From IMG/VR virus record IMGVR_UViG_3300044998_000776, positions 1 to 55,828 of that record: a stretch of DNA of 55,828 bases; one strand, written 5' to 3'. This document shows, in pieces, positions 5,001 to 24,023 of the stretch. The position numbers were made by a program, and so were the translations under genes. Positions within the stretch are counted from its first letter, which is position 1. Each line of letters starts with the position of its first letter. The notes under the pieces are model-generated. The model did no database searches. It saw nothing but the letters and a program-made list of their open reading frames with translations, and was not told where the DNA came from. The DNA is from a virus.

Positions 5001-5547
5001 ATGACATACGTCATCTATTGTCATACAAATAAAAAGACAGGGAAGAGATATATCGGATTCACATCGAAATCGATTGATGAACGATGGCAACAACATGTTA
5101 ACTTGGCTCAAAATGCCAAGTCAATGACGCAATTATCGCATGCGATCAGATCTTCTTCTGAAGAAGATTGGACTCATGAAATTATAGATCAATGTGATTC
5201 AGAGAATCTTGCAAAAGAAAAAGAATCGTTTTGGATAGCAGAGTTCAAAACGAACTGCTTGAGAGAGGGTCATGAAGGTTATAACATGACCGATGGGGGT
5301 GACGGGTGACGGGCTTTCGCTTAAGGGCGAACTTAATCCGATGTTTGGTAAGAAAGGTCATCTTTGTCCTAGCTTCGGTATCAAACGTTCTCCAGAAACT
5401 CGAGCAAAATGTCTAAATCAGCTAAGAAATATGCTTCGACTCCGGAGTTTAAAGAACGCGTAAGTCGAACACATAAAGGCAAAGTTCAAAGTTCTTTCTA
5501 CTGAAACTAGACTGAAAATCAGTCTCTCGAAAAAGAAAAAATCATGA
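5001..5547 (+). pseudogene. GIY-YIG homing endonuclease broken by two 7-bp tandem duplications
   Basis: The first 102 codons encode a GIY-YIG nuclease (VIYCHTNKKTGKRYIGFTSK, then ESFWIAEFKTN and GYNMTDGGDG). An exact tandem TGACGGG at 5300-5313 shifts the frame and creates the stop at 5307-5309; deleting one copy restores GGDGLSLKGELNPMFGKK, a NUMOD3-like segment. A 1-base deletion near 5428 and a second exact tandem duplication (AAAGTTC, 5481-5494) break the rest; removing one copy there restores KGKVLSTETRLKISLS. The original frame ends in TGA at 5545-5547, overlapping the ATG of the mutase gene. Three independent lesions mean real decay. Confidence 0.85.
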
Positions 5548-6638
5548 GTTACGATTATCTGATCGTTGGGGCCGGACTTTTTGGATCCGTTTTCGCCCAG
5601 CAGGCAACTGAAGCTGGAAAAAAATGCCTCGTCATAGAGAAAAATAACCACATCGGAGGCAATTGCTTCACTCGAGAGATTGAAGGAATTCATGTGCATG
5701 TTTACGGTCCACACATCTTCCATACCGATAACGAGAAGATCTGGAAGTATATGAACCGATGGACGACGTTCAATCACTACGTCAATCGTCCCAAAGTCAA
5801 CTTCAAGGACAAGATCTACTCGTTTCCGATCAACTTGATGACTCTCAATCAGCTTTGGGGAGTTCGAACGCCCGAAGAAGCGAAAGCTCGACTAGAGCTA
5901 GTCAAATCTAAAATTGAGAATCCAAAAAATCTCGAAGAATGGATGTTGTCGCAAGTCGGTAAGGAAATTTACGAAACCTTCATCGAAGGCTACACGATGA
6001 AGCAGTGGAATCGGCATCCATCCAAATTGCCGGCGTCCATCATCAAACGCCTTCCGATTCGTTTGACATTCGACGATAATTACTTCAACGATCGCTATCA
6101 AGGGATTCCGATCGGAGGGTATACGGCCATCTTCGAAAAACTTCTAGCCGGATCCGATGTCTTGCTCGGAATCGATTACTTTGAGGATCGACGCATCCTG
6201 GATAAGCTAGCCAAGCAGGTCGTATATACGGGTAAGCTTGACCAATTTTTCTCGTATTGCCTGGGTCGTCTCGAATATAGAGGACTTCGATTTGATACGA
6301 AAGTCCTCGACACTTCCGATTTCCAAGGAAATGCCGTCGTCAATTACACTCAAAAAGAAATTCCCTACACACGAATTACCGAACATCGACATTTTGATCT
6401 CAAAAAAGATGGAGACAAGACGGTCGTCACTTGGGAGTTTCCTGACGATTGGGACGAAACAAAAGTTCCCTACTACCCTATCAACGACGAAGCCAATAAC
6501 AAACTTAGGGATCAATACAAGAAGCTAGCTGCTCAGAGGCCCGACGTTATTTTTGGCGGAAGACTAGCCTCGTACATGTATTATGATATGCACCAGGTTG
6601 TGGCGGCCGCCCTGCACACCTGGGAGAAAGAAAGATGA
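5544..6638 (+). CDS. glf: UDP-galactopyranose mutase
   Basis: Flavoenzyme that interconverts UDP-galactopyranose and UDP-galactofuranose, the donor for galactofuranose-containing glycans. 364 residues, essentially the length of bacterial Glf. The N-terminus has the FAD dinucleotide-binding motif (YLIVGAGLFGS) and EKNNHIGGNC; VYGPHIFHTDNEKIWKYM and the FSFP-like YSFPINLMTLNQLW segment are hallmark UGM sequences; the C-terminal RLASYMYYDMHQVV closes the flavin site with its conserved Arg and Tyr residues. It looks complete and functional. The ATG overlaps the stop of the HEG remnant upstream. It is the best evidence that the module builds a galactofuranose-type sugar. Confidence 0.95.
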   Translation: MSYDYLIVGAGLFGSVFAQQATEAGKKCLVIEKNNHIGGNCFTREIEGIHVHVYGPHIFHTDNEKIWKYMNRWTTFNHYVNRPKVNFKDKIYSFPINLMTLNQLWGVRTPEEAKARLELVKSKIENPKNLEEWMLSQVGKEIYETFIEGYTMKQWNRHPSKLPASIIKRLPIRLTFDDNYFNDRYQGIPIGGYTAIFEKLLAGSDVLLGIDYFEDRRILDKLAKQVVYTGKLDQFFSYCLGRLEYRGLRFDTKVLDTSDFQGNAVVNYTQKEIPYTRITEHRHFDLKKDGDKTVVTWEFPDDWDETKVPYYPINDEANNKLRDQYKKLAAQRPDVIFGGRLASYMYYDMHQVVAAALHTWEKER

Positions 6639-6820: not shown

Positions 6821-7615
6821 ATGTTTATACGACAATGTCCGACATGTCAATTTGACATTATGTATAAAGGTAAACAAGCGTATGAAAGAGCACAAAAAAG
6901 AAACAAGAATGTCGTAGCTGTTTCACAACACGCAACAACCCATTTCGTGGAAAGCATTTTAGTCCGAAAGTAAAGCAAAGCTAAATGTTGCGCAGACGGG
7001 AAAACTTCATTCTGAAGAAGTTCGACGTAAAATGTCAGAAGCTCATATAGGCGAAAAGAATCACTTTTTGGTCAGAAACACTCTGAACAAACACGTCACA
7101 CGTCAGCTCATTTGTCAAAAAACAAAACAACGTGACCAGAATGGTGCTCGAAATCCATTCCACGGACATCATCATACACCTGAAACTCGTGAACGCATGT
7201 CAAAATCACGTGCAGATGGACTTGCGTCAGGTCGCATCATCAACACCCATGAGTATGGAAATAAATCATGGTACGTTTCTAGCAAGACAAATGAAAGAGT
7301 GCGATGCGATTCAATACTTGAGAAATTTCGAATGACGCAACTTGATAACGATCCAAATGTTTGTGATTGGACGAAGCGGTATGGTATCAAAATTCCATAT
7401 GTCTTTAATGGATATACGAAGCATTACGTACCAGATTTTCTGATCACGACAAATTCAGGTGAAAAATCGTTGAAGAAGTCAAGGGTTATGATGCGAAAGC
7501 TCGTGAGAAACTCAATGTTCTTCTAAACTACTGTGCAGAAAATAATCTTACTGCACGTTGGATTACCCAATCAGAGTTAGAACAACAAGGTTACAGAAAA
7601 TTCAAGGATCAATAA
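6821..7615 (+). pseudogene. NUMOD3 / PD-(D/E)xK homing endonuclease, multiple frameshifts
   Basis: Pieces of one HEG in three frames: an N-terminal zinc-binding start (MFIRQCPTCQFD, continuing after a shift near 6905 as ECRSCFTTRNNPF), then NUMOD3 repeats after a shift near 6980 (HSEEVRRKMSEAHIG and NPFHGHHHTPETRERMSKS), then a nuclease core with the catalytic motif HYVPDFLITT and, after a missing A in an A5 run (7462-7466), VEEVKGYDAKAREKL. The architecture matches the intact nuclease inside the split intein at 8745. The last frame ends with TAA at 7613-7615, overlapping the ATG of the dehydrogenase. Three single-base lesions make it inactive unless they are sequencing errors. Confidence 0.75.
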
Positions 7616-8712
7616 TGAAAGCAATTGGTGTCCTGGGTCAGGGATTCGTGGGTGGATCTCTGACGACTGTCTTTGCCGAGAGAGGCTTTAAGGTATACGT
7701 CTATGATAAGACGGGAAAAATAGCTACAGGAGGAGACGGACGATTTGCTCCTATCGATTTTCCGCGTCTCGGTGGTCCGACACCGACCCAAATCTTTGCC
7801 GCAGCAGTGGAAGCTCTCAAGGATTTTTCCGGAGTTTTCTTTGTCTGCCTGCCGACTCCCATGTTTGAAGATGGAGAAGCCGATCTATCGATCGTAGAAA
7901 ACACGCTCAAGGAATTAAGCGAAATCAAGGGAGAAAGAATCGCCGTCGTCAAATCGACGGTGCCACCCGGGTCGGTGGAAAAGTGGAACAAGCAGTTCGC
8001 TGATACTGGACTAAGGGTCGTATTCAACCCAGAATTTTTGACGGAAGCTAATGCCTTGGAGGATATGAGAAACCAGAACAGAATAATTCTGGGGGGTCCC
8101 AGGCCCCATATCAATAAGGTCAAGCTGATCTTCCAAGCGGCTTTTCCTAAGGTGCCGCTAATCAAGACATCAAGCACGACGGCCGAGATGGTCAAATACG
8201 TCACCAACTGCTTTTTAGCGGCAAAGGTCTCGTTTGCCAACGAGATGTTTCAAGTGTGTGAAGCCCTCGCCAAGAGTGGACTAGACATCGATTATGACAA
8301 AGTCGTCGAATATGCCCGATTTGACGAAAGATTGGGTCACAGCCATTGGTCCGTTCCTGGACCCGTGCCCACGCACGACGGCCGATATGTCAAGGGTTTC
8401 GGTGGTCACTGCATCGTCCATGGAACAAAAGTTAAAACGCCGCAGGGTGAAAAAAATATCGAAGACATTCGACCTGACACGATCGTCGCGAGTAGCAATT
8501 ACGATCTAACCACAAGTGAAAACAAGCTTGTAAATCAATTCCATTCTCGAGCGTATAACGGTAAAGTGTTGGCGTTCACCGTTTCTGTAGAAGGCGAGGA
8601 ACGGACAGTAGTTTGCACGCCCGAACATCTCTTGCCCGTAAAACGAGACGGTCGGCTACAGATTTTACGTGCGTGCGATATCGTCGATTCGGACGAGCTG
8701 TTTGTTGCATAG
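7615..8712 (+). CDS. UDP-glucose/UDP-sugar 6-dehydrogenase N-part fused to split-intein N-half
   Basis: Residues 1-265 are the NAD-binding and central domains of a UDP-sugar dehydrogenase: GVLGQGFVGGSL (NAD loop), VVKSTVPPGS, FNPEFLTEANALEDM (catalytic Glu) and TNCFLAAKVSFANEM (catalytic Lys and Asn). The sequence reaches KGFGGH and then, exactly before the catalytic cysteine, becomes an intein N-half of 100 residues ending in TAG. The rest of the enzyme is encoded at 9581-9748. ATG at 7615 is chosen over an upstream TTG because the NAD-binding strand starts there. Activity needs protein trans-splicing with the downstream half. The oxidised sugar would feed the glycan module. Confidence 0.92.
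   Translation: MKAIGVLGQGFVGGSLTTVFAERGFKVYVYDKTGKIATGGDGRFAPIDFPRLGGPTPTQIFAAAVEALKDFSGVFFVCLPTPMFEDGEADLSIVENTLKELSEIKGERIAVVKSTVPPGSVEKWNKQFADTGLRVVFNPEFLTEANALEDMRNQNRIILGGPRPHINKVKLIFQAAFPKVPLIKTSSTTAEMVKYVTNCFLAAKVSFANEMFQVCEALAKSGLDIDYDKVVEYARFDERLGHSHWSVPGPVPTHDGRYVKGFGGHCIVHGTKVKTPQGEKNIEDIRPDTIVASSNYDLTTSENKLVNQFHSRAYNGKVLAFTVSVEGEERTVVCTPEHLLPVKRDGRLQILRACDIVDSDELFVA
8410..8709 (+). mobile_element. Split intein, N-terminal half (100 aa)
   Basis: Starts with the nucleophile Cys1 in CIVHGTKVKTPQGEKNI, a clear block A with the conserved Thr and Gly. Block B is VVCTPEHLLPV with the T-x-x-H motif. The half ends after RACDIVDSDELFVA at a TAG codon; reading through would add only six or seven residues before TGA. 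There is no endonuclease domain inside, as expected for a split intein. The insertion point G-G-H / C is the most conserved, active-site position of the enzyme, typical of intein sites. Confidence 0.93.
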
Positions 8713-8738
8713 TTTGTAAGCTGTGACTATTGATACTT

Positions 8739-8744
8739 TATAAT
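8739..8744 (+). promoter_or_regulatory. TATAAT directly before the intein-encoded nuclease gene
   Basis: A perfect -10-like hexamer abuts the ATG at 8745. If used as a promoter for this gene its transcript would start inside the coding region, so it may serve the downstream C-half or be fortuitous. Similar TATAAT boxes lie just upstream of several other starts in the window. Confidence 0.3.
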
Positions 8745-9452
8745 ATGGCAAGAACAGTCGAACTCACGTGCAAGTATTGTCATACATTGTTCAACGCAAA
8801 GTACAAAGAACGTAACAAACGGAAATTTTGCAGCCGAATTTGCGTTGATCGATATCAGACGGGATATAGGAATCCCGCGTTTGGGAAAACGTACCGTACA
8901 AAAGCTACACATCCTGAATGGGCTGAACGCACAGCACGGACTCATCGTGAGCGTGGATACATTACAGGCGACAAAAATCCCATGCGTAATCCTGAAATCG
9001 CAGCAAAAGTAAGCGCTAGTCGTTCAGAGCGATTTCGTATTGATGAAGCTTTTCGACAGCGTACAAGTGAATTGATGCGGAAAGCTTGGAAAGACAGCAA
9101 ATTTGATGGAACCAAAGTCGGCAAATGCAAATGGTATGAGTTTACTAAGATCGATGGCACTGTGTGCAAAGTACAGGGGACGTGGGAGCTTGCGTATGCA
9201 AAATGGCTCGATATGCAAGGAATTTATTTTATAGCGCATCGGGGAAGAATTATGTACACTGACGAATGTGGTAGAAATCGTTCGTACTATCCCGATTTCT
9301 ACCTGCTTGACACAGACGAGTACGTGGATATCAAAAACGAGTACCATTTCAGACTTAACGAACAGAAATGGGATCAGATTCGAAAGTCAAATTCTGATCT
9401 CAAAATCATTCTCCTCTTCAAGGAACAACTTCAGGAATTAGGTGTGTTGTGA
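8745..9452 (+). CDS. Free-standing PD-(D/E)xK homing endonuclease nested in the split intein
   Basis: 235 residues. N-terminal zinc-finger-like module (CKYCHTLFN, then KRKFCSRICVDRY), a NUMOD3-like middle (GDKNPMRNPEIAAKVSASRS) and a C-terminal Vsr-like nuclease core: GTWELAYAKWLDMQGI, SYYPDFYLLD and YVDIKNEYHF giving the P-D and D-x-K catalytic residues. It would cut intein-free alleles of the dehydrogenase gene to spread the whole cassette. ATG 8745 preferred over TTG 8730 because the first zinc ligand pair follows it directly. The stop overlaps the GTG of the C-half (GTGA, 9449-9452), so translation of the nuclease and of the C-half are coupled. It is intact, unlike its relative at 6821. 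Confidence 0.9.
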   Translation: MARTVELTCKYCHTLFNAKYKERNKRKFCSRICVDRYQTGYRNPAFGKTYRTKATHPEWAERTARTHRERGYITGDKNPMRNPEIAAKVSASRSERFRIDEAFRQRTSELMRKAWKDSKFDGTKVGKCKWYEFTKIDGTVCKVQGTWELAYAKWLDMQGIYFIAHRGRIMYTDECGRNRSYYPDFYLLDTDEYVDIKNEYHFRLNEQKWDQIRKSNSDLKIILLFKEQLQELGVL

Positions 9453-9580
9453 AAACAGCAAAGATTTTGCGCATTGAAGCCCAAATATATGTTGGCACTG
9501 TTTATAACATCGAGCTCGAAACAAACGATTTGAGACACGACGATTTGTTTTGGATTTGTAACGGAATCGCAGTTCACAAT
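9449..9580 (+). mobile_element. Split intein, C-terminal half (44 aa)
   Basis: Begins with GTG in a GTGA overlap. Contains block F, VYNIELETN followed by FWICNGIAVHN, and ends with the penultimate His and terminal Asn of block G just before Cys+1. Together with the N-half all residues required for splicing (Cys1, block B Thr and His, His-Asn, Cys+1) are present. Confidence 0.93.
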
Positions 9581-9748
9581 TGCCTCCCTAAGGATCTCAA
9601 CGCCCTTAAGAAAGTCGCCGACAAACTCGGAGTCGACACCAAAGTCCTGGACGCCGTCTGGGAAAAGAATCTCGAAGTCCGACCCGAAGAAGATCGAGAC
9701 TGGGAAAAGATGCAGGGTCGCGCTGTCAGCAAACGAGACAAGCGATGA
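9449..9748 (+). CDS. Split-intein C-half fused to C-part of UDP-sugar dehydrogenase
   Basis: After the 44-residue intein half, the extein resumes with the catalytic cysteine: CLPKDLNALKKVADKLG. Joined to the N-part it restores the family motif GGHCLPKD, in which Cys is the thiohemiacetal nucleophile and Asp activates water. The joined enzyme would be 265+55 = 320 residues, shorter than the usual roughly 390-440, and appears to lack most of the C-terminal UDP-binding domain; other compact phage versions may exist. The stop overlaps the next frame's ATG (9745). Translation start is GTG, selected by the overlap with the nuclease stop. Confidence 0.9.
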   Translation: MKTAKILRIEAQIYVGTVYNIELETNDLRHDDLFWICNGIAVHNCLPKDLNALKKVADKLGVDTKVLDAVWEKNLEVRPEEDRDWEKMQGRAVSKRDKR

Positions 9749-11286: not shown

Positions 11287-11784
11287 ATGGCTGATGATGA
11301 CGATTTCTTGGACGGCTTCTACATGAGGCAGATCGTGTTGGATATCAACAAGATCACCGAGAATCTCTGGCAGGGAGCGATTCCCCCGCGGGGAGACATC
11401 TTAGCAAAAAAAGGATTCCAGGTTCTCGTGCTGTGTGTCGATGAGAATCAGGATGCCAGCCTTTACCTGGGATTGGAAGTTATCTGCGCTCCGGGAGATG
11501 ATGACGAACGTGTCCATCGCATGGAACGAGACCTTAAAGTCTGGATTCCGGCGGCGCAACAAGTCGTCGAAGCCGTACGCCAAGGAAAGAAAGTTCTTGT
11601 TACGTGCATGGCGGGTCTCAATCGATCGGGCATGGTGACGGCTCTGGCTCTCAGAAAACTGACGAGCTGGTCAGGACCGGCAATCGTCAAGCACATGAAG
11701 GCCCGACGACCTTACGCTCTGTGCAACTCTACTTTTGAGAAATATATCAAGGAGTCTTTCCCCGAACCTAAGACGTCCCAGTAG
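11287..11784 (+). CDS. Dual-specificity protein phosphatase
   Basis: 165 residues with the cysteine phosphatase P-loop LVTCMAGLNRSGM (C-x5-R-S) and an upstream general-acid loop around PGDDDE. The N-terminal KITENLWQGAIPP resembles the start of DSP/tyrosine-phosphatase domains. It hydrolyses phosphoryl groups from Tyr/Ser/Thr or from RNA 5' ends or nucleotides; the substrate cannot be read here, but the position beside tRNA genes is suggestive. The 3' end runs into tRNA 1: the last codons and the TAG stop (11782-11784) are tRNA positions 1-10. RNase P processing of that tRNA would cut the mRNA just before the stop. Confidence 0.85.
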   Translation: MADDDDFLDGFYMRQIVLDINKITENLWQGAIPPRGDILAKKGFQVLVLCVDENQDASLYLGLEVICAPGDDDERVHRMERDLKVWIPAAQQVVEAVRQGKKVLVTCMAGLNRSGMVTALALRKLTSWSGPAIVKHMKARRPYALCNSTFEKYIKESFPEPKTSQ

Positions 11785-11848
11785 CTTAGCGGTTCAAAGC
11801 ACCCGACTCTAAATCGGCGCATCGTGGGTTCGAATCCCACCTGGGGCA
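11775..11848 (+). tRNA. tRNA with anticodon CUA (amber suppressor)
   Basis: Cloverleaf drawn by hand: acceptor GTCCCAG/CTGGGGC, D-arm GCTT..AAGC, anticodon stem CCGA/TCGG with the outer C-C pair mismatched, 7-base loop CTCTAAA, T-arm GTGGG TTCGAAT CCCAC. U33 is present and positions 34-36 read CTA (11809-11811), so it pairs with UAG. Loop bases A36-A38 fit a hypermodified A37. Discriminator is A; CCA is not encoded. It begins inside the phosphatase gene. The amino acid is uncertain; short variable loop rules out classical bacterial Tyr, Ser and Leu types. Confidence 0.85.
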
Positions 11849-11853
11849 CTCAT

Positions 11854-11929
11854 TTTCCCGTAGCTCAATCGGTAGAGCAGCGACCTCTAAATTCGCGCGT
11901 TACGGGTTCAAGTCCCGTCGGGAAAGCCA
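11854..11929 (+). tRNA. Second tRNA with anticodon CUA (amber suppressor, Gln-like ends)
   Basis: Acceptor TTTCCCG/CGGGAAA pairs perfectly, D-arm GCTC..GAGC, anticodon stem GCGA/TCGC with a C-T mismatch next to the loop, loop CTCTAAA with CTA at 11887-11889, T-arm ACGGG TTCAAGT CCCGT. CCA is encoded (11927-11929). The U1-A72 pair and G73 discriminator, together with U35, are recognition features of glutaminyl-tRNA synthetase in E. coli, so Gln charging is a reasonable inference. Only 5 bases separate it from tRNA 1. Confidence 0.87.
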
Positions 11930-19446: not shown

Positions 19447-20028
19447 ATGGCTGCTATCTATTGTTTCATAAATCGAGTCAATCAAAAACGATATATCGGG
19501 CAATCTTTAAATCCCACGAAGCGTATGAAAGAGCATTTAAAAGCTGCTAAAAATGGAAATGCTAAGCCTCTTTATGCCGCTATTCGAAAATACGGAGAAG
19601 AAAATTTCGAATTTGAGATCGTTGAAGAGTGTTTGATCGAGCAATTAAACGATCGTGAACAATATTGGGTTTCTCATTTTGATTCTTTCAACAAAGAAAA
19701 GGGTTACAATCTTACAACTGGTGGAAAACAATGTCAATTCGGTCCAATGACTGATGAACATAAACGAAAAATCGGAGAAGCTAATAAGATCTCTAAACTA
19801 GGAGCTAAACTTTCTGACGAACACAGGCAAAAGATCAGCGAATCTTTACAAGGACACAAAGGTCACTGGCTCGAAAAAGAGATGTCAGAAGAACACAGAG
19901 AAAAGATATCTGCTGGTAACAAGGGAAAGAAAAAATCATTCCGAACCGAAGAGCACAAACGAAAAATTAGTGAAGCCAAGAAAGGTTCGATTCCGTGGAA
20001 TAAGGGACGAAAGAGGGACGATTCGTAA
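19447..20028 (+). CDS. GIY-YIG homing endonuclease with NUMOD3 repeats, intact
   Basis: 193 residues. Nuclease domain at residues 1-95: AIYCFINRVNQKRYIGQSLN, catalytic Arg in NPTKRMKEH, Glu in CLIEQLNDREQYWVSHFDSF. Four DNA-binding NUMOD3-type repeats follow: MTDEHKRKIGEANK, LSDEHRQKISESLQGHKGH, MSEEHREKISAGNKGKK and RTEEHKRKISEAKKGSIPW. It would cut HEG-less alleles near the baseplate genes to copy itself in. It is inserted between the spike gene (21 bases) and the gene at 20028, whose ATG overlaps its TAA (TAATG). The only fully intact GIY-YIG gene in the window. Confidence 0.92.
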   Translation: MAAIYCFINRVNQKRYIGQSLNPTKRMKEHLKAAKNGNAKPLYAAIRKYGEENFEFEIVEECLIEQLNDREQYWVSHFDSFNKEKGYNLTTGGKQCQFGPMTDEHKRKIGEANKISKLGAKLSDEHRQKISESLQGHKGHWLEKEMSEEHREKISAGNKGKKKSFRTEEHKRKISEAKKGSIPWNKGRKRDDS

Positions 20029-23414: not shown

Positions 23415-23441
23415 TAATTGATCTTAGAGTATATTTTCTTC

Positions 23442-24023
23442 ATGATTAAACGAATCAGACATCCCAAGTCATTCGATATTGACACGATCAAAAATGATCT
23501 GATCGATCTTTATGTCAATAAAGGTTGGCCAATCATCGCTCTGAGCAAAAAATTCCATCTAGGATCTCCAAAAATTCTTGCTGGACTTCAAAGATGGGGA
23601 ATTCAAAAAAGAAGCAGGTCAGATGTTCTGAAGTTTACGTTTGATGAACGAAGAAAGCTACGAGCATGCGCATCTTGTTCCGAACAATTCAGAGGAACAT
23701 ACAATCAAAAATTTTGTCAGAACTGCGTCGGTAATTCATCAAAATCTGGTCTTCTTCGTTTGTCATCGTACGCTATGAACGAAAATCAATTTAGCGAAAT
23801 GTTGAATCAACAGCAAGGAAAATGCTTGCTTTGCCAGCGCGATTTTTCTGAAATCAAACCTCCTAAATCAAAATCATCTTCGATTGTTGTCGATCATGAT
23901 CATAAAACACGAAAAGTGCGTGGACTTTTATGCGGCGGCTGCAACATATCCCTTGGTCACATAGAGAAAAAATCTTCTGAATGGTTACGAAGAGCCATCT
24001 GCTACGCGAAAGTTGAACTGTAA
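23442..24023 (+). CDS. HNH homing endonuclease, endonuclease VII fold
   Basis: 193 residues. N-terminal helix-turn-helix-like region (GWPIIALSKKFHLGSPKILA), a zinc knuckle (CASCSEQF and FCQNC), then the endonuclease VII core CLLCQRDF, VVDHDHKTRKVRGLLCGGCN and ISLGHIEKK with the H-N-type catalytic His and four zinc cysteines. Phages use this fold both for gp49 resolvases and for HEGs; the location in the middle of the baseplate genes, between gp6 and the next virion gene, marks it as a HEG. Start ATG 23442 preferred over TTG 23418. Its TAA overlaps the next ATG (TAATG, 24021-24025). Intact. Confidence 0.88.
   Translation: MIKRIRHPKSFDIDTIKNDLIDLYVNKGWPIIALSKKFHLGSPKILAGLQRWGIQKRSRSDVLKFTFDERRKLRACASCSEQFRGTYNQKFCQNCVGNSSKSGLLRLSSYAMNENQFSEMLNQQQGKCLLCQRDFSEIKPPKSKSSSIVVDHDHKTRKVRGLLCGGCNISLGHIEKKSSEWLRRAICYAKVEL

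Follow-up and report, generated by a model that had tools for sequence, protein, structure and literature searches.

A phage UDP-glucose-dehydrogenase-like gene fractured before its catalytic cysteine by a predicted split intein with a nested nuclease gene

The window analysed here is the whole 55,828-base virus record IMGVR_UViG_3300044998_000776. It contains a short nucleotide-sugar dehydrogenase gene in two pieces, with a UDP-galactopyranose mutase gene (5544-6638) on one side and small downstream genes on the other. Comparison with uninterrupted alleles confirmed that this is a phage UDP-glucose-dehydrogenase-like (UGD) gene, fractured directly before the codon of its catalytic cysteine. 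Very likely, a split intein accompanied by a site-specific nuclease has invaded the phage gene at this codon, trans-splicing restoring the enzyme and the nuclease homing to the unbroken site. The three open reading frames (ORFs) of the locus, UGD-N/IntN, nuclease and IntC/UGD-C, occupy three different frames, IntN and IntC being the N- and C-terminal intein halves. The features are as follows (aa, amino acids).

7615-8712, + strand: UGD-N/IntN ORF, from ATG at 7615 to the stop TAG at 8710-8712
7615..8409, + strand: N-extein, the first 265 aa, with the NAD-binding and most of the central domain, ending GFGGH; Pfam PF03721 3.3e-27, PF00984 6.9e-13; TIGR03026 3e-48
8410..8709, + strand: IntN, 100 aa, Cys1 codon TGC at 8410-8412, block B T-P-E-H (TVVCTPEHLLPV); TIGR01445 1.7e-3; gp41-1 5e-3 (phmmer)
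8713..8744, + strand: spacer of 32 nt between the N-half stop and the nuclease ATG; sequence
8745..9452, + strand: nested homing-endonuclease-like gene, 235 aa, ATG at 8745, TGA at 9450-9452; in-frame TTG at 8730
9449..9452, + strand: GTGA, the nuclease stop overlapping the IntC start; sequence, translational coupling likely
9449..9580, + strand: IntC, 44 aa, GTG start at 9449, ending G-I-A-V-H-N; TIGR01443 0.15, under the cut-off
9581..9748, + strand: C-extein, the last 55 aa, Cys+1 codon TGC at 9581, CLPKDLNAL..., stop at 9746-9748; PF00984 resumes at profile position 62

An initial annotation made from the letters alone had described this layout: a dehydrogenase fractured by a split intein exactly before the catalytic cysteine, halves of 100 and 44 aa, a separate 235-aa PD-(D/E)xK nuclease gene between them, a GTGA overlap and a ligated product of about 320 residues. 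All of these structural details were right. The overlap lies at 9449-9452, the PD...DxK residues are present in ORF 8745-9452, the two exteins add up to 265 + 55 = 320 aa, and the fractured arrangement of host enzyme, split intein and separate endonuclease ORF recurs in relatives.

The host enzyme has the features of a nucleotide-sugar dehydrogenase, namely an NAD-binding domain and a central domain with the catalytic Cys motif (PF03721, PF00984, TIGR03026). A Pfam search of the window gave no match to the C-terminal UDP-binding domain PF03720. Intact phage relatives are only ~290-350 aa long, which leaves no room for the UDP-binding domain of cellular enzymes. Eleven intein-free alleles (L002-L012) run uninterrupted through the junction and place the insertion, to the base, where the initial annotation had put it; they are 62-73% identical to the window in the N-extein and 61-78% in the C-extein. 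The cysteine that follows the junction is the nucleophile of the UGD enzyme family. The enzyme would thus be active only after splicing, with the C-half supplying the catalytic Cys. A second, distant dehydrogenase class, with CHPRD in place of CFPKD (TIGR03026 2.9e-27), is split at the same catalytic Cys.

Sequence comparisons support the view that the two halves form a split intein. As the initial annotation had said, the splicing residues are all present in the window; Cys1, the T-P-E-H of block B, the terminal H-N and Cys+1 are conserved across relatives. T70 and H73 of block B are invariant in a 15-sequence IntN alignment (A6), and H43 and N44 are invariant across 23 IntC sequences. A profile of the 15 IntN sequences matches the solved inteins KlbA (1.5e-11) and NrdJ-1 (5.7e-6). 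The matches of the IntC family profile are all weak, and two are to inteins (0.011 and 0.088). Curated cut-offs are exceeded by the IntN of L155, L055 and L041 (intein_Nterm) and by the IntC of L031 (intein_Cterm, 20.4 bits, cut-off 15.6). Because relatives pass the cut-offs and the family profile matches solved inteins, we regard the identity of the halves as settled. Trans-splicing of the two half-proteins is predicted from the conserved residues and the family membership. The window IntN is 44% and the IntC ~60% identical to their counterparts in L032. No relatives were recovered when the window IntN alone was used for scanning, since IntN diverges too fast; the nuclease is the better probe.

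More distant IntN-like relatives were seen in other phage genes, in L013-L017 and L019 (5001-5168; L017 3271-3438) and in L018 (2122-2310). The L018 insert is intein-like, has an HNH-like region and lies within a phage head-morphogenesis-like gene. Two adjacent tRNA genes in the window (11775-11849 and 11854-11929) have a CTA anticodon, of the amber suppressor type, though TAG ends several genes. As IntN ends in TAG, recoding of this codon was considered, but reading TAG as Gln gives no large ORF a useful extension. The L032 IntN also stops at the same place, and the stop was taken as real. A group I intron was also rejected, there being no Rfam intron in the window, only the two tRNAs.

The nested gene encodes a protein with an N-terminal zinc-finger-like module (Cys 9, 12, 29 and 33, all four conserved), a helical middle part containing GDKNxM, and a C-terminal PD-(D/E)xK domain (E148, P183-D184, D195-x-K197). 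In a 35-sequence alignment (A3) K197 is invariant (35/35), as are P183 and D184, and D195 is nearly so. Together with the alpha-beta core these residues place the protein among the PD-(D/E)xK nucleases. The initial annotation had pointed to Vsr-like homing endonucleases for comparison, and this relationship was not borne out: the EDxHD type needs His where this nuclease has the invariant Lys of DxK, and the closest solved sequence is T7 endonuclease I (1.5e-7). The C-terminal half of an AlphaFold2 model (pLDDT 88) resembles TnsA (Z 8.8), I-Bth0305I (Z 6.5) and Vsr (Z 6.0), middling scores that would point to no more than a common fold. With Foldseek alone, the nuclease had no significant match. 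Values of dN/dS in related loci were 0.08-0.21 for the nuclease and 0.07-0.73 for the intein halves; being below 1, they argue for purifying selection on both.

Viral contigs were searched with the nuclease, yielding 80 loci. Nearly all strong matches adjoin or interrupt UGD: the nuclease gene is either nested within a fractured gene (F) or directly downstream of an intact one (free-standing, S). After a simple redundancy filter, on which all locus counts rest, there are ~28 non-redundant F loci at the same codon including the window, and in nearly all of them the same nuclease gene is nested. The loci are listed below.

F loci: window, L031, L032, L038, L040, L041, L044, L045, L047-L051, L053, L055, L057, L058, L059, L062-L065, L099, L100, L104
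F loci found through UGD or intein searches: L153, L155, L103
S loci (n=18): L009, L010, L021, L023, L024, L025, L027, L028, L029, L034-L037, L042, L061, L116, L141, L157
Probable S locus: L039

The nuclease stop lies within -8 to +4 nt of the IntC start in 26/26 measurable non-redundant F loci, and 18 of the 26 have a 4-nt overlap. Because the two are so close in all of these loci, translation of the C-half seems to be coupled to that of the nuclease. In L153 (4582-4815) and L155 (4690-4926) just the 3′ part of the nuclease frame is left, still ending in an ATGA overlap with IntC, as if it had been retained for translation of the C-half. At the UGD catalytic Cys of L103 (4331-4355) lies a split intein whose halves are ~20 nt apart, with no nuclease; it is possibly the end state after nuclease loss. 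Relatives of the nuclease at 33% identity (L068, L069 and L070) are not beside UGD. Among bacterial and archaeal genomes there was one short, weak nuclease match only (L185), and none of the inteins read from 60 genomes of the phylum of L185 was in UGD.

One line of evidence on the target of the nuclease comes from L009 (an S locus) and the nuclease-free L008, which belong to different metagenome records and whose flanks are 97.8% and 99.7% identical. By blastn borders, 882 nt in L009 replace 112 nt of L008. The two are identical at 709/714 positions up to -30 nt of the catalytic Cys codon, and a block of differences starts at -28; beyond it they share only 88/150 positions over the rest of UGD, then comes the nuclease, and then 3391/3400 positions are identical. 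The L009 cassette matches that of L010 at 150/150 positions of UGD and 710/718 of the nuclease, while the upstream UGD parts of these two agree at only 670/714. What was the end of UGD in L008 now terminates the nuclease ORF of L009 (...SKKPKG). Because its backbone is L008-like but its cassette L010-like, L009 is on sequence grounds a recombinant, an L008-like phage with an L010-type cassette and a crossover 28 nt before the codon that carries the intein in other phages.

A second line of evidence is the state of the site itself. The canonical residues, His at -1 and Pro at +3, are both present in 39/59 empty (E) loci and in 10/17 F loci of class 1 but in 1/18 S loci (S versus E, p=5e-6; F versus S, p=9e-4). 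On an N-extein tree of 77 E and S loci, correlated evolution between carrying the nuclease and losing the canonical site is favoured (likelihood ratio 27.4, 4 degrees of freedom, p=1.6e-5); the model used was a simple one of two traits, and some of its rates lay at their bounds. Site changes in S and not in F are the pattern to be expected, because the intein protects by its insertion whereas a lone nuclease needs a changed site. In L062 and L063 the exteins are 52% and 62% identical, compared with 75% for IntN, 86% for the nuclease and 87% for IntC; the cassette is far more alike than the exteins and therefore moves. Both this pair and the L009 mosaic point to spread of the cassette between diverged hosts. 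We conclude that the nuclease very probably cuts the intein insertion site.

These observations are best explained by the following course of events. A split intein with a PD-(D/E)xK nuclease gene between its halves invades UGD at the catalytic Cys codon. The half-proteins would be made separately, and IntN and IntC would associate. Judging by the conserved residues and family membership, splicing would then proceed through a Cys1 thioester, a Cys+1 branch and Asn cyclisation, joining GGH to CLPKD in a 320-aa enzyme. The nuclease would recognize and cut unbroken UGD around the catalytic Cys codon, and the cassette would be copied in when the break is repaired from the invaded genome, as the recombination footprint and the site-immunity patterns suggest. 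Insertion of the intein would destroy the target and so protect the host phage; where a free-standing nuclease gene lies just after UGD, protection would come from changes of the site instead. The composite in the window may have arisen when a free-standing nuclease aimed at the site and a split intein at the same site were joined, as in collaborative homing, or by the reverse step.

Several points weigh against this account. The window halves themselves score below the curated NCBIfam cut-offs, at 19.3 bits versus 24.5 for IntN and 12.4 bits versus 15.6 for IntC. The sharp footprint comes from one near-identical pair only, L008 and L009. Ser at -1 is also found in 20/59 nuclease-free alleles, where the variation either has other causes or reflects nucleases that have been lost. 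All relatives are metagenomic contigs, and no cultured phage carries the family at E<1e-8, searches giving weak matches or none. Finally, the window enzyme and similarly short relatives are without the C-terminal UDP-binding domain.

As to the history of the element, the stages found are an empty site, a free-standing nuclease with a changed site, the composite, a truncated nuclease (L153, L155) and a split intein with no nuclease (L103). On balance we favour the view that a single nuclease family dedicated to the UGD active site is represented at every stage of building and loss, that the window composite arose by capture of a free-standing nuclease which already targeted the intein site, as collaborative homing for inteins, and that this switch was made several times. 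The nuclease tree places the window and L032, both F loci, inside a 13-row set with 11 S rows (support 97/85) and requires at least 3-4 switches between F and S. A history in the opposite direction, in which the nuclease first resided inside a UGD intein and then escaped so that the S loci are derived, differs from the proposed mechanism only on this point. Contiguous UGD inteins do exist in archaea (PMC4071816), most F rows form one large group, and an unrooted tree such as this leaves the direction of the switches unfixed. The position of the window and L032 inside a mainly S set argues the other way, and we think the escape of the nuclease from an intein the less likely course, though a possible one.

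It is improbable that the nuclease targets another place near UGD and coincides with the split intein through hitch-hiking at a recombination-prone boundary. The free-standing and intron-encoded nucleases of T4 do differ in the distance from the cleavage site to their own gene (PMC2988022), which leaves room for such a displaced target. However, in the L008/L009 pair the cassette has its left border 28 nt away from the intein codon, the immunity-like substitutions sit on both sides of precisely this codon in S and not in F loci, and one nuclease family serves both states.

The window could also hold a decayed element whose halves no longer splice, leaving the phage without UGD activity and the nuclease as a passenger. 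The weak profile scores of IntN and IntC and the frame-broken homing genes nearby (5001-5463 and 6821-7613) would be in keeping with decay. Yet the window keeps all splicing residues, its frames are open, its exteins are 61-78% identical to uninterrupted alleles, and in related loci the nuclease and the intein halves are under purifying selection; we consider decay very unlikely. An assembly or sequencing artefact mimicking gene fracture, conceivable for a single metagenomic contig with frame breaks in nearby genes, is refuted by the ~27 other contigs that share the structure with starts and stops of their own.

The hosts of the fractured genes described by Dassa et al. in 2009 are reportedly enzymes of DNA synthesis, repair and nucleotide metabolism, with half of the nucleases Vsr-like (EDxHD) and some inserts stand-alone. 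The window locus resembles them in having a conserved phage enzyme, a split intein and a separate endonuclease gene between the halves, and in the sizes of IntN (~100 aa) and IntC (~40 aa), as in the gp41-1, NrdJ-1 and IMPDH-1 type. It differs in its host, a nucleotide-sugar dehydrogenase, in its E...PD...DxK nuclease and in the existence of free-standing copies at the same host gene. A 'udp' intein is present in the UDP-glucose 6-dehydrogenase of Methanocaldococcus jannaschii, haloarchaea and Dictyoglomus (PMC4071816), an enzyme of the same family as the window host, but what PMC4071816 says of this allele does not describe it as split around a separate nuclease gene. The initial annotation had known of no such case in a sugar-nucleotide dehydrogenase. 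This holds for the split, fractured phage form with the present nuclease, which is new, and not for UGD inteins as such, already known from the 'udp' allele. In the library of papers searched, none joined split inteins with UDP-glucose dehydrogenase.

In collaborative homing, exemplified by F-CphI beside the psbA intron of cyanophage S-PM2 (PMC6083498), a free-standing nuclease beside a host gene likewise targets the place where a splicing element inserts, and composites are explained by union of the two, as in composite intron formation (PMC2988022). Here the splicing element is a split intein and not a group I intron, and one nuclease family shows both the separate and the joined state at a single gene. 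Intronless homing of the T4 seg type (PMC2988022) is similar in that a free-standing nuclease adjoins its target gene and spreads with co-conversion of the flanks; the seg nucleases are GIY-YIG enzymes, whereas the present one is PD-(D/E)xK with a zinc-type module. T7 endonuclease I, which matches the catalytic domain in sequence, is a junction resolvase and lacks the zinc and helical parts that the window nuclease has at its N-terminus. New are the split, nuclease-nested intein in UGD, the different nuclease family, and the fact that this family also stands alone beside the same gene, with a recombination footprint at the codon of the intein; none of the papers in the library searched combined these.

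How collaborative-homing arrangements would come about is not clear, according to work on phage nucleases (PMC10448857). The present loci address this question of how an endonuclease gene comes to join a splicing element inserted exactly at its cleavage site. At a single gene, one nuclease family occurs both next to splicing elements and within them, and a recombination event has been caught, which makes the proposal directly testable. The loci also extend fractured genes to a sugar enzyme and show recurrent insertion at the catalytic residue among distantly related dehydrogenases. They add ~25 natural split intein pairs that are new and strongly divergent from the ones used in biotechnology.

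The window genome is rich in homing-type elements. At 6821-7613, directly upstream of the UGD start, is a frame-broken homing-type nuclease with NUMOD3 and a TnsA-like PD-(D/E)xK domain, ending EVKGYDAK...; UGD is therefore preceded by one nuclease remnant while carrying another nuclease. A frame-broken GIY-YIG homing-type gene (5001-5463) lies before the UDP-galactopyranose mutase gene. Three more homing-type genes are found at 1862-2299 (GIY-YIG), 19447-20028 (GIY-YIG with NUMOD3) and 23418-24023 (endonuclease VII type).

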